Of a DNA stretch of 64,000 nucleotides, positions 32,813 through 38,595 are shown in pieces. The DNA lies in assembly GCA_034401135.1 (NCBI GenBank), contig JAWZSP010000006.1, positions 1,426,001-1,490,000 of the forward strand, in the 5' to 3' direction. Positions within the stretch are counted from its first letter, which is position 1. Each line of letters starts with the position of its first letter. The notes below the pieces were generated by a model. That model worked only from the letters and a program-made list of their open reading frames with translations, ran no database searches and had not been told where the DNA came from. The position numbers and the translations under genes were made by a program. Source of the stretch: Volutella citrinella (Eukaryota > Ascomycota > Sordariomycetes > Hypocreales > Nectriaceae).

Positions 32813-33620
32813 ATGGTATTAAATCCAGCTCCCCCTGCCGCAGCCCGGCCGCAACCCTCGCCCGTCGCCAGTACTAACCGCTTATCCCAGTCTCAATCCC
32901 TCCGACCCTATCTGCAATGCGTGCGCAGCAGCTTGACCGCTGCTCTCACATTATCCAACTTCGCTTCCCAGACTGCCGAGCGTCACAATGTCCCTGAGAT
33001 CGAAAGCCAGACATCTCCCGAGGTCCTCCTGACGCCGCTGACCATTGCGCGCAACGAGAACGAGCGTGTCCTCATCGAGCCCAGCATCAACTCTGTCCGC
33101 ATCAGCATCAAGATTAAGCAGGCCGATGAGATCGAGCACATCCTCGTACATAAGTTCACACGATTTTTGACACAGCGTAACTGCAGCCACCCCCAGCCAT
33201 GGTCTCCATTCGAATGCTCACCCCCAGTCTAGGCGCCGAGTCCTTCTTCATCCTGCGAAGGAAACCCATTCCCGGATATGACATCTCGTTCCTCATTACC
33301 AACTTCCACACCGAGGAGCTTCTGAAGCACAAGCTGGTGGACTTCGTTATCCAATTCATGGAAGAGGTACACACATTGCACGGAACAGTGGCGCGGCTAG
33401 ATCAACGTACTAATGCTCTGGGCTTGTAGGTGGACAAGGAAATCTCGGAAATGAAGCTCTTCGTAAGTATCCTGGAGAGAGAACGAAGACATTAAGCTAA
33501 TCACACTGCGCAGCTAAACTCGCGAGCCCGATTTGTGGCCGAGTCATTCCTCACCCCTGTACGGATACCAACGAAGATCTTGTTTTGTGCGCAACTAATT
33601 TGTCTGCCCAGTTTGATTAA
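32813..33620 (+). CDS. ARC19: Arp2/3 complex 20 kDa subunit ARPC4
   Basis: Predicted 169-aa subunit of the Arp2/3 actin-branching complex in six exons: 32813-32815, 32891-33176, 33233-33366, 33430-33462, 33514-33558 and 33612-33620. The first exon is just the ATG, directly followed by a GTATTA donor; the intron ends TACTAAC...CCCAG. The last exon is nine bases (Phe, Asp, stop). The joined protein follows ARPC4 almost along its full length: LRPYLQCVR at the N-terminus, [57 protein letters not shown] and [13 protein letters not shown]; human ARPC4 is 168 aa. With ARPC2 it forms the structural core of the complex and nucleates cortical and endocytic actin patches. The length and every phase agree, so the microexons are well supported. 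Confidence 0.96.
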
Positions 33621-34916
33621 AGTGTCGACATCGAAAAGGGCGTCGGAAAAGCATTCAAGAGCACCAAGACACGAAAGGTTCTTGGCCCAAGAACTCAGTG
33701 GGAAATGTCCGACGGGGTGCCGCTTGTGCCAAATGGCAATTAGAGGAAGCAAAGCTTCGGCACCTTCGGGGCCAGGTTATGACGAGATAGAATTGACACC
33801 GAACTATACGGAAAGTGAGTTGGGGCTTCGATTGGAGATCTACAACCGCAATCTGCTTTACTTGATGACTTTCTCCGTACGAAGTGCTGTGACGAGAAGC
33901 TGTCGGAGGATGTGAGCACGCTCGCCCTCCCAATGTGTCCTCAACCAACTGTCGAATACCCCACCGGATGCTAGCATCGAGTCCGGATTATGTCCACGTG
34001 TAAGCCATGTGGCAATCCTTCAACCAAATCGGCCGAATGATACAACGAACGACCTCTGTCTGTGAATCATGCTCACTTTCAAGTATCTAGGCTGCACGCG
34101 GTATTCTAATCGTCCACTCCTACGCAAAGCACCTCTTACTACGGAAGATTGCCGGATATTTCAGGCTCAATGCGTGCGCCTGTCAGTCTCTTCCGTCTAC
34201 AGCTGGCACGCAGCTGTTGGGGCCGGAGAAGCCGCCGTCAGGTGAGCCATCGCTATAAATTCTCCCCCTCCCTCCCCCCAATCTCCTTCTTTTACCTTCC
34301 ATCGTCGACCTTCTTCGCTGCTTCAACAAGTTGCGGTAAATATCTCACCTCTTCCGCTACCTGGCTTGGGATTACTGTACACTATCCGTCCCAATCCATC
34401 GTACTCCCCCACGACGCAACAGGCAGTACTTCTAAAAGGTAATAGTACTCTTGAAGCCATAGGTATTGTTGCCGCGTGCGATCGTCGATTGTTGACTCCT
34501 CTCGCGGGGCCAACGAATCAACAGCTGTTTGCCCCTCTTCCAGTTTGGCACGGGCTGGAGGACCTGGCTTTTGTCATTCATCCCAAGGGCAAAACGAGGT
34601 CCGTTCGGCAAAGTGAGAAGATTCTGATACAAGTCCTGCTGGGGCTCCCACCTTTCCCCTCTTGGAAAGCGGTCGATAGCTCAAAATCTCACCCCGTCTT
34701 ACTTCTGTGTTTTTGGTCAAGGCACCTTTTGCAATTTGTCTTCCCACCTGCAACGCACTCGCAAACAAAGCCGGCCATTGACTACTTTTGTAAGCACCTT
34801 CTTCCGAGCAACTGTTTGTTGCTATTTGTTTTTGCAGCTCCTTTTCTTCGTTCACTTTCATCTACGGATTGTTGGGTTATCTCACCAGACTGACTCTCGT
34901 GCAAAGTGGTACAGCC
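33621..34916. other. Intergenic between ARPC4 and the RRM gene
   Basis: About 1.3 kb with no supported gene. The first part should hold the ARPC4 3' end. The last 600 bases, rich in C/T tracts (for example about 34257-34320), likely hold promoter and leader of the RRM gene. Confidence 0.5.
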
Positions 34917-37195
34917 ATGGAATCCAACACCGAGAGCAATGTTTCCGGCTCATCCTTGCGCGATGAGACGTCCTCGAACCAGAGTGACACTGTTAATCCG
35001 CGGTTTGACTCTGCCAACACTTCATTTGCTTCGGTGAGCCCGACCCAGCTCGCATGCGAGTCTCACGGCTTCTCTGCCGCTGGTGTGCAGTCCAATCTCA
35101 ACCCAGCTTCGGGTTCCTGGATCCCCTCTGCCCACCAGGCCATCTCCAACGCGCTCAATGTAAGCTGTATCGAAACCGCTTCCCCTTGCATTTACTGACC
35201 ATGACAATAGTCGAGCCAGTACATGCCGGCTGCTCCCAACGCATTCGCTCCAGGGTTCGTGGCTCCTTACAACGCAAACCCTGTGGTCAACAATGTGGGA
35301 CAGTACCAGCCTGTGCAGCATCCGGGCCAAAGCTTCGATGTTCATGCTGGAACTCCTTAGATGGGAGCTCCAGTGAATGGAAATGCTGCTAGCTACGGAC
35401 CTTTGAGCTCGCACCCGGCAGAAGGGTTTGCTGGCCACCCATTGATCCAGTCCCCCGCGTTTGTGCCCCAGTCCCATGTTGGCATCCCCCAGAGCCACTC
35501 GGTTCAGACGATTCAATCTCTTCTGAGCCCAGGCGAGACGCCTCAGCAGCTCGCTGGGGCATATGACTGCGTGTCGAGCCCCGAGGTTCCCCGGACCGGG
35601 CGGCTGACGGAGCCTCGAAACTATGCTCCTCGTACATCTGGTCTCCCGGCTTCAGCTGATCCGCCTCCCAAGTTTCTTCTTGAGAGGGGCTCCCCTTCTG
35701 CCCAGTCCACCGGCAATGATCCCTTCACATCGCCTAGATCCGTCAACGGAACAGCTGGTCATCCGTCCTCGGTGGCACGCATTCCAGGACCAGCCTCTAT
35801 GGCCATGGTAGCCCTGGGAGGCAACCCTCAACGGTCTGCCAAGCTGAACATGCTCACCGCGTCCGGGTACCCTACTCTGGAAACAGCCATGGATGCGGCC
35901 ATTTTTCCATTTGTCGAGGGCGCCCGTCAGGCTCAGTCTCAGAACTATGGAGTGGTCAAGTTGAAGAACGTAAGGGGATTCTGCCAAGTCTTTTGATGGT
36001 GTGACTGAGCTAACTGCAGCATGCAGATCCCATTTGCGACTAAGCGCGCCGAGGTCATTGCTTTCCTCGGCCGCAATAGCAAGATTCTCAATGACACGAT
36101 GGAGCCTGTGCACATCATCATGGAACGCGCCACTAGCAAGACCATGGATGCATACGTGGAGTTTCTTACTCTCGAAGAAGCCATGAAGACTGCTGAGCGA
36201 CACCATCAGAATGTCACCAGTGGTAGAATCAGCCGCCTCGGGGATCGCCCCGTGGAGGTTGAACTGTCCAGCCAGGCGAGCCTCATGAAGGATCTCTTCC
36301 CTGTGGCCCGCGGAGTCTTCTGGGATGGAGTCACCCCGAAATTCCTGCCCCACGATCCGGCTCAGCCATGGGAGAGCTTCAAGGGATTCATTTCTAGCGA
36401 GGAAATGGTGATGCTCGTCAAGCATGTCGAAGTCCCTCATCGGGTAGGTGTTTGCCTTGGCTTACGTTGATGAAGTGTTTCCATTTACTAAACCAAATAC
36501 AGTCTCCCTTTTCGAAGGAGTGCCCCCAGCGCCCGTATGAGTGCCTCATCAGCACTCTCCGGAAGTTCCCTTGGGCGATGACGAGCCACATCACTATTGC
36601 CGAGCGGCAGTCGATCTTCAAGGCCACGTGCGAGTTGATTCGCCTCCTTTCTCGTGCAGTTGAGAAGGGAGACGACCCCATTAACTTGAACGCCCAGCTT
36701 TACAAGCGAGTCCTTCGATCCGCCATGGGCTGTGTAGGGTTCACGACCGTGATGAAGGACGACATTGCGTGGATGGTCGACATGACGGAGATGGAGACAA
36801 GCGCCTTCGGCCAGCCTCGATTTGCCCAAGCGTGGGCTCACCAGTACGCACTGGTCCCGAAGCCCGATATGCCACTTGACGTGGTGGAGGTGAGTTGGCC
36901 TGCATGCCCGAGCTCTTGTGGTAGATGGAGAAGATCATGATGCTGACTCAAACGACAGTGGTACATCGGCCTCATCCGTGAGCAGTCGCAGCGTGATTTG
37001 CTTTCACGCCCTCTGCCGGAGCGCGGCGATATCCAAGAAAAGGGCCAGAAAACCAACCTATACTGGGGGTATTTCTGGGCTGAAGTTGGCTACACGCAAG
37101 GCCCCCATTTCGACCATATGTCGCTGGCTCAGGCCGCGCACGCCGAGCTCTCCGCCGTCGAGCGCATCTTGTCTCGAGCTCTTGCTCGTAACTAG
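34917..37195 (+). CDS. RRM-domain RNA-binding protein with an in-frame UAG at codon 131
   Basis: Five exons: 34917-35159, 35211-35969, 36027-36443, 36503-36889 and 36959-37195, all joined in phase 0, giving 681 codons. Codon 131 (35358-35360) is TAG; otherwise the frame is open to the stop at 37193. Residues 1-325 are low-complexity Ser/Pro/Gln/Asn-rich. An RRM follows at about 328-410, with RNP2-like VVKLKNIPF split by intron 2 and MDAYVEFLT as the RNP1-position strand. The rest is a conserved-looking, mostly helical region (for example PYECLISTLRKFPWAM and VGFTTVMKDDIAWMVDM). It probably binds mRNA, cytoplasmic or nuclear unknown. The stop codon sits in the loop of a strong hairpin, which suggests A-to-I editing to UGG (Trp). 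Alternatives are a nonsense allele, sequencing error, a 66-nt in-frame intron (35295-35360) with a weak donor, or translation starting at the ATG at 35361. Confidence 0.82.
35345..35375 (+). promoter_or_regulatory. Predicted mRNA hairpin presenting the UAG codon in its loop
   Basis: Stem: 35345-35351 pairs with 35369-35375 (five Watson-Crick pairs plus two G-U pairs at the base), one A/C mismatch (35352/35368), then 35353-35356 pairs with 35364-35367. The loop is seven bases, 35357-35363, reading TTAGATG. The A of the TAG codon is 35359, third in the loop with T before it and G after it. This matches the known preference of fungal A-to-I editing for loop adenosines with a 5' U. Pairing was done by hand; no folding energy was computed. 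Confidence 0.7.
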
Positions 37196-38595
37196 AAGAC
37201 GAAATACCTTTTGTTTTGCTCTGGGGGGGGCGCTGCGCAGACTATCTAGCGCCGCTAGTCTGTGGTTTGAAATGGTGCTCTGGAGGCAGACGGTTCTGCT
37301 CATGTTGGTTGTTTCCATATATGCGGCCTGGGTACATTTTCCCTTTTTCTTTCCTTTCTTCTTTTCTTGCTCCGTCCGGCATCAGGATATGGCTCTTGGA
37401 GTCGCTCTTCGGCGCCCAAGTGCACCCGCTCTTGTTCTGGGTCGAGATAGAGCGGCTGGCGCATTGTCAGCAGACGAAAGCTATATCGGAGCTCTGGTGC
37501 GAGTGCTAGGCTGATATTGGAGAGCCGGACAGAGCTTGTGCTCGGTGTGAAGCAGTTTGAAGTTACAAACACGTTCGAACGGGCACATTTGGGGGAAGGG
37601 AGTTATGATTTGCAAGTTCTGGCCGTTTGGTTTTAATGGAGGTGTTGTTGACGCACGCACTGATAGCAGGTATCCGAGTACGGGACGTGGAGAGCTCTAG
37701 GACTACGGATAGGCGCCTATGGTACGTGTCCGCCTTTGCTTAATTGATCACTTGATGCGGTAGAATTGGTAATTTGTTTCGCGTGTGGTGTTGTGGTGCT
37801 GCGAGCCTCCAGTTCCGTCACGCGCTTGATCGATTCGCCGTGCTTGCTGCTGAGCGGCACGGCCTCAGCGTCTGAGACGGATGGACCGAACTGCGCCAAA
37901 ATCACGGTTCGAGTTGACATAAAGCTAATACTGCTTTCCCGGAGGAACGCGTTTTACAGAATGCACTTCAAAGGCGCTGTCGAGGTTTGGATGGTTGCTG
38001 ATTGTGCAGCATCTCGTGGTTTCACAGGGTTTCGTTGAAACTCGCACTGTTTTCCTCTTGGATACAATTTGAAGAAGCAGCGGGCAGTTGAGGGAGGACC
38101 CACCGCTCACTGGCCAGGGCCAACGTGACCCCTGCAGCTTCGCCATCCACTGGAGCTATGGTGGAGTTGACAGCCAGCCACTGCCTATCACAGCTCATTC
38201 CTCCTCCTCAAGGCAAAATAAACCCAAGCGACTCGTGGTTCCCACCCGCCTCGAACAAACGGCGGCCAGTTATTATTTGACCTCGATTGCTTCCATTCAT
38301 GCTCCACCCCTCGACTCTTTCTCCAAATTCTCCCTTTCATCAACAACGCCCCCAGAATTCATCAGTCCATTCTTCCATCCGCTAGAGAAACTATTTGCGC
38401 GGGCTGTCCATTCATCGCCAGCGAGAGAGCGAGAGGGACGTGACCCCTCGCATCTTATCTGATCTAGTCCCCAAACAATCCGCACCACTAAAACGTACGA
38501 CCCTGGACAGGCTTCCTCGGCCGGAATCGGAGACTTCAAACCAGCCTTCCTTCATCACCTAAGATCTGGAAATCCGACGACAAAACTAGCTCGCC
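37196..38595. other. Intergenic between RRM gene and SFH5
   Basis: About 1.4 kb. The first few hundred bases (T-rich, around 37310-37370) fit the 3' UTR of the RRM gene; the last few hundred (C/T-rich, around 38270-38350) fit the SFH5 promoter and leader. No gene supported. Confidence 0.5.

Follow-up and report, generated by a model that had tools for sequence, protein, structure and literature searches.

The window, by which we mean the whole 64-kb stretch of DNA that was analysed (64,000 nt), carries a five-exon gene whose features are collected in the table below. The summed exons of this RRM gene come to 2043 nt, or 681 codons with the final TAG counted, and the frame is interrupted by one internal stop, a TAG at codon 131 that the sequence-only reading had claimed and that our gene model confirms. 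The four introns are 51, 57, 59 and 69 nt long, and their branch sites, located 15-17 nt from the intron end, read CTRAY in three of four and CTRA in the remaining one.

Features of the RRM gene and of the candidate editing site (window positions)
Feature	Position	Strand	Remarks
Five-exon gene, 681 codons	34917..37195	+	exons 34917-35159, 35211-35969, 36027-36443, 36503-36889, 36959-37195
PAM2-like motif LNPASGSWIP, codons 61-70, exon 1	35097..35126	+	same-form motif in relatives
Predicted hairpin GCUGGAACUCCUUAGAUGGGAGCUCCAGU, TAG in loop	35346..35374	+	from folding
In-frame TAG, codon 131	35358..35360	+	candidate edited A = 35359
ATG, codon 132, immediately 3' of in-frame TAG	35361..35363	+	T at -3
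qRRM domain, hnRNP F/H and ESRP type, codons ~328-415, spans an intron	35949..36269	+	predicted structure of P0002 and PDB matches; edges approximate
Helical C-terminal domain, codons ~458-676, across two introns	36396..37180	+	predicted structure of P0002; edges approximate
Canonical stop TAG of RRM gene	37193..37195	+	

Upstream of the RRM gene, at window positions 32882-33567 (32.9-33.6 kb), lies a neighbouring gene that was hit by the portion of relatives' models belonging to PF05856, a family we take to be ARPC4. This domain is fused to the RRM protein in one database model in 7 of the best 120 of 278 relatives, so the neighbourhood of the gene is common to relatives. There was no tRNA in the 64-kb window and no Rfam family at 34800-37400. 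The genome comprises 45.1 Mb in 26 contigs, and the 148-residue qRRM region had a single match in it, so we saw no spare paralog of this part of the gene.

We searched a protein database with the translated gene, carrying an X at the stop, and obtained 278 proteins at E<=0.001 from the 7993 scored candidates that shared most words with the query; the best 120 of these were listed. All named relatives among the best 120 of 278 were fungi. The best matches came from Stylonectria, Dactylonectria, Cylindrodendrum, Ilyonectria and Neonectria, with 57-67% identity over 75-91% of the query, and there was no closer protein among the best 120 of 278. By these best hits the fungus belongs to Hypocreales, probably to Nectriaceae. 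Aligning 49 of these 120 relatives gave 74 invariant columns, and the protein studied here keeps the residue at every one of them (74/74), which gives no sign of gene decay. The in-frame TAG is flanked on both sides by conserved parts of the protein. When seven relatives were compared to the window by tblastn, four of them (P0001, P0003, P0006 and P0047) aligned to exons 1-3 in one frame, and exon 1 aligned in frame to the N-termini of relatives; on these alignments, the N-terminal part is part of the same protein as the qRRM part. Used alone as a query, the 130-residue N-terminal piece gave five database candidates, none at E<=1, and no truncated relatives.

For the Dactylonectria ortholog P0002, the predicted structure (mean pLDDT 76.9) starts with a disordered N-terminus, followed by an RRM-like fold and then a helical C-terminal domain; we transferred its domain edges to the gene by a constant offset, hence their approximate character. 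A profile search placed hnRNP F/H and ESRP1 chains on top (best E 0.0009), and a fold search did the same for ESRP1, Glorund and hnRNP H, with a best E of 0.0014 and hence no match reaching 0.001. These weak but consistent matches suggest that the modelled RRM fold is nearest to the qRRM structures of hnRNP F/H and ESRP. The earlier description of the product as an RRM protein was therefore right, in the form of a qRRM by both profile and fold, though a Pfam search of the protein returned no family above the cut-off.

Exon 1 encodes a short motif whose form is found N-terminal to the qRRM in 44 of the best 120 of 278 relatives, in Hypocreales and Colletotrichum both; among the other 76 of the 120 are models without the N-terminus, and also Fusarium forms (for example SNSWMPSAHQAL) that were missed by the pattern. 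The PAM2 consensus is xxLNxxAxEFxP, and a Trp variant, PAM2w, is known from LARP4 (PMC9249222). Set against L-N-x-x-A-x-E-F/W-x-P, the motif LNPASGSWIP fits except for S in place of A and S in place of E, and it thus resembles a PAM2 motif with Trp replacing Phe, as in the LARP4 PAM2w. From this resemblance we infer putative binding of the motif to PABP. As the conserved PAM2-like motif precedes the TAG and the qRRM and helical domain follow it, the stop separates a putative PABP tether from the RNA-binding part. The genome contains one MLLE-domain match (L053, G000:C1:1502651-1502797), which covers 49 of 66 positions and has a TAA inside, possibly within an intron of a poly(A)-binding-protein gene.

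The in-frame TAG is presented in the loop of a predicted hairpin whose stem consists of 4 bp, one A/C mismatch and 5 bp, with one G-U pair outside. The sequence-only reading had placed the A as the third base of a 7-nt loop. The stem that it described (4 bp, mismatch, 5 bp) was recovered, but in the minimum-energy fold a U-G pair also closes the loop, leaving the 5-nt loop UAGAU with the A second, and the 7-nt loop with the A third forms only when this wobble is open (pair probability 0.945-0.974 across five folds). A 35359 was unpaired at a probability of 0.97-1.0 in the five folds, the shortest covering 61 nt and the longest the entire spliced transcript (2365 nt, its ends assumed), and the hairpin persisted in the folded spliced mRNA. 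The energy of the hairpin itself was -15.8 kcal/mol. The canonical stop of the gene is likewise a TAG and could formally be lost by editing, although the 61-nt fold shows its A paired.

As a sample for comparison we used 4015 TAGs from both strands of 264 kb (the window and 20 further stretches), excluding sites within 30 nt of an end. By a hairpin-energy measure that was picked after the site had been seen, an energy as low was found at 5/4015 TAGs, the candidate site included, and at none of the 660 that occur on the sense strand within open frames of at least 200 codons. When TAG was placed at codons one step from TAG, none of 120 such codons in the RRM gene reached the hairpin energy (best -15.4), and 5 of 2891 did so in frames of at least 450 codons. 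Shuffling of an 81-nt stretch gave no sequence that folded as well (0/200; z -3.38). Other controls were less telling: TAGs in a hairpin loop at all are common (33% of 4015), and the energy of the whole 61-nt fold was ordinary, being matched by 216/4015 TAGs, by 52 of the 660 sense-strand TAGs and by 13 of the 120 one-step codons in the RRM gene. Among 20000 synonymous recodings with the amino acids fixed, the A lay in a loop in 65%, 2620 reached the 61-nt energy and 818 (4%) reached the hairpin energy, so the local amino acids explain part of the hairpin. An A third in a seven-base loop with at least four Watson-Crick pairs is possible at 20/4015 TAGs, and this geometry coincides with a hairpin energy of <=-10 at one of the 4015; as the candidate site combines both, it must be this single case. 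In tRNA, A34 is the third base of the 7-nt anticodon loop. It is preceded there by U33 (PMC11169179).

Among the features of edited sites, U at -1 and G at +1 have the most weight, with a hairpin loop ranked third and minimum free energy fourth, and -2 U, +1 G and +4 G are preferred while +2 A and +3 U are depleted (excerpted text of PMC9600606). The T before and the G after A 35359 are present in the sequence as had been claimed, the U at -1 being trivially so for any UAG. Around the candidate A, the -2 U, +1 G and +4 G are preferred bases, and the +2 A and +3 U (2/6 flanking bases) are disfavoured. Codon 131 lies in a linker of ~codons 82-165 that is fast-evolving and without a confident alignment. 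In the weak alignment of this linker, Trp was found at the stop column in 0/22 relatives, 2/22 being gapped there; Stylonectria and Cosmosporella have Thr at this column in a short local match, and Paramyrothecium has a Trp nearby, in HGGWPVGAP. A conserved TGG at this codon in orthologs, which had been named as a possible mark of selection, was thus not supported by this comparison of protein sequences only, and the column held no Gln either.

A-to-I editing of mRNA is performed by Tad2-Tad3 together with the cofactor Ame1. The latter is one of the DUF726 proteins, and its MV pair at 500-501 originated in Sordariomycetes (PMC11156358, PMC4817773, PMC11087585). We found three DUF726 genes (six matches) in the genome, of which one has the MV pair. 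In this AME1-like gene (L024, G000:C3:2006002-2006535) the M and V precede the catalytic-Ser slot by exactly 31 and 30 residues, with Asp at +58 and His at +98, spacings equal to those of F. graminearum Ame1 M500 V501, S531, D589 and H629. The catalytic-Ser slot itself holds Arg (GYRLA); in F. graminearum, sexual development was reported to be normal in S531A mutants of Ame1 (PMC11087585). The other two DUF726 genes have AH and SL instead of MV, Asp at +58 and Ser in the catalytic slot. Deaminase-family genes were also found in the genome.

A further mark came from the kinases. There were 136 kinase matches in the genome, 20 of them with a TAG inside, and when all 20 were read only one (L021, G000:C1:3689407-3689595) had its TAG at the PUK1 position; the other 19 look, as judged by eye, like intron or exon-edge stops. 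This kinase, called PUK1-like from position and context rather than from a tree, reads CDW-TAG-SIGIILYECLYG, with TGG TAG at the published editing position; at this place PUK1 reads TAG TAG in F. graminearum and TGG TAG in F. verticillioides (PMC4817773). Its TAG is predicted to lie in a 6-nt loop with the A third. Among the best 120 of 1860 relatives of the kinase piece, 37 end right after RCD, 12 end after RCDW and 71 continue as WW, and the ends of these 49 fit stops at two Trp codons. We consider a PUK1-like kinase with TGG-TAG to be a strong sign that this fungus edits mRNA, and together with an AME1-like gene bearing the Sordariomycete-specific MV pair it makes the genome look editing-competent. 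In other families, there was no stop inside three DNA-methylase matches or one Dcp1 match, and a TAG was found inside 2/12 RhoGAP and 1/6 DUF726 matches, possibly in introns. A codon-usage survey of single-stop interruptions in the 264 kb returned 828 cases (456 TGA, 229 TAG and 143 TAA) and was not discriminating.

From these data we propose, with a probability of roughly 0.64, that the codon-131 TAG is a premature-stop-correction (PSC) site of Sordariomycete A-to-I mRNA editing, and probably a new member of the known PSC class. What the sequence-only reading had put forward as editing is favoured by the U at -1, the G at +1, a very stable hairpin loop, an intact and conserved gene, and the presence of an AME1-type activator and a PUK1-like kinase; a conserved TGG was not supported. 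Speaking against it are the column without Trp in the weak alignment, the depleted +2 A and +3 U, the recodings that reach the hairpin energy and the TAGs that match the 61-nt energy, the predicted 5-nt loop in place of the tRNA-like 7 nt, the lack of database matches to the 130-residue piece and the Arg in the Ser slot of the AME1-like gene. Editing is the most likely reading when set against its best rival, a recent nonsense mutation or strain polymorphism, which we judge unlikely. By that rival account, translation would begin at the following ATG, whether by leaky scanning, by reinitiation or on a transcript started further downstream, and would give a protein of 549 residues that retains the entire qRRM part. 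The account is helped by the position of this ATG immediately 3' of the stop, by database models of several relatives that begin within the N-terminal region, and by the lack of Trp at the weakly aligned column. Yet few mutations of this type would be expected to land in so stable a hairpin, as the one-step codons indicate, and the PAM2-like motif upstream of the stop is conserved in the relatives. The start codons also argue against it, the first AUG having G at -3 and G at +4 and the second T at -3 and G at +4. A T at -3 of an AUG is a poor context.

The stop might instead be a product of a wrong gene model, with the TAG spliced out or the first exon derived from another transcript, so that codon 131 would never be read in frame. 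Such an error could be suspected from an unconserved linker with codon-usage scores near background, from the acceptor-like CTCCTTAG, from a CTRA at 35523 through which the exon-1 donor could be joined to acceptors 35546/35549, with a resulting intron length of 387 or 390 nt, and from the precedent of FgBUD14, a known gene that is both edited and alternatively spliced (PMC11156358). However, an intron of 387-390 nt would remove a stretch common to relatives (VGIPQSHSVQTIQSLLSPGETP), the called introns are 51-69 nt long with CTRAY or CTRA branch sites, and the in-frame agreement of exon 1 with relatives' N-termini speaks for the model as drawn; we therefore consider a misdrawn model improbable. 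Splicing across the TAG from exon-2 donors offered 24 frame-keeping introns of 45-200 nt, none of them with CTRAY. For the exon-1 donor, six in-phase acceptors lie past the TAG in 35361-35560, and the stretch 35211-35560 contains a single CTRA and not one CTRAY. A one-base sequencing or assembly error at the TAG is the least probable account, and very much so: the base was read from one assembly only, but the sampled contigs of 4-7 Mb suggest a good assembly, and by the one-step-codon control a chance error within such a hairpin would be improbable.

If the TAG is a PSC site, the mRNA in mycelium would be read as a 130-residue fragment with the PAM2-like motif only, and the unedited mRNA would probably be a target of nonsense-mediated decay (NMD), which the three introns 3' of the stop make likely. 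Where Tad2-Tad3 and Ame1 are active, as in perithecia of related fungi, we infer that the A in the hairpin loop would be deaminated and the edited UAG read as UGG. The edited mRNA would then give a 680-residue protein that joins the PAM2-like tether, the qRRM and the helical domain. With the PAM2-like motif split from the qRRM and an AUG right after the UAG, two separate pieces could be made from the unedited mRNA; neither this split nor the adjacent ATG had been remarked on in the sequence-only reading. We offer as a tentative and rather doubtful extension that the stop acts as an editing-controlled tether, in which the same mRNA would yield these two pieces without editing and a single joined regulator after it. 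Editing would then be a developmental switch acting on a protein that regulates mRNAs, and the inserted Trp itself would be unimportant.

The premature stops corrected by editing in F. graminearum (PUK1, AMD1, FgRID, FgAMA1 and FgBUD14) resemble the candidate in having a UAG within the coding region, U at -1, a hairpin loop, an otherwise intact gene and an editing-competent genome. In those genes editing has been observed, whereas at the present site it is predicted from genomic sequence. The stops of PUK1 fall in the kinase domain. The present one is located in disordered linker sequence, with a PAM2-like motif on one side and the qRRM on the other, and its column held no Trp in the weak alignment of 22 relatives. 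The PSC genes in the excerpts of the cited papers are from Fusarium and Neurospora (PMC11156358, PMC4817773, PMC11087585, PMC11169179, PMC12754623). In the listed titles and abstract openings of the literature on RRM genes under stop editing, and of that on PAM2 with quasi-RRM or Fusarium, this gene was not met, and we found no paper joining Dactylonectria, Neonectria and RNA editing. If true, the candidate would place a PSC site in an apparent further Hypocreales lineage and in an apparent RNA-regulator gene, linking editing to the regulation of other mRNAs. What is restored would moreover be chain continuity and not a conserved Trp, a point relevant to the question of whether PSC sites serve as repairs or as switches.

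Two other systems are similar in part. In CHE1 of F. graminearum, as described in the excerpted text of PMC11169179, a UAG follows a 145-residue fragment, with a less conserved N-terminal region before it and C-terminal domains after it, and some relatives' gene models begin at a downstream Met, both as here; CHE1 differs in being a zinc-finger factor whose editing takes place in hyphae, and its PSC is conserved in closely related Fusarium species. In the OLD-ZAO module of Neurospora, UAG-to-UIG correction switches on a full-length protein with a preference for a hairpin loop and U at -1, like the candidate, but that module has its own dedicated OLD editors, with ZAO factors as their neighbours, and acts in an antiviral response (excerpts of PMC12754623).
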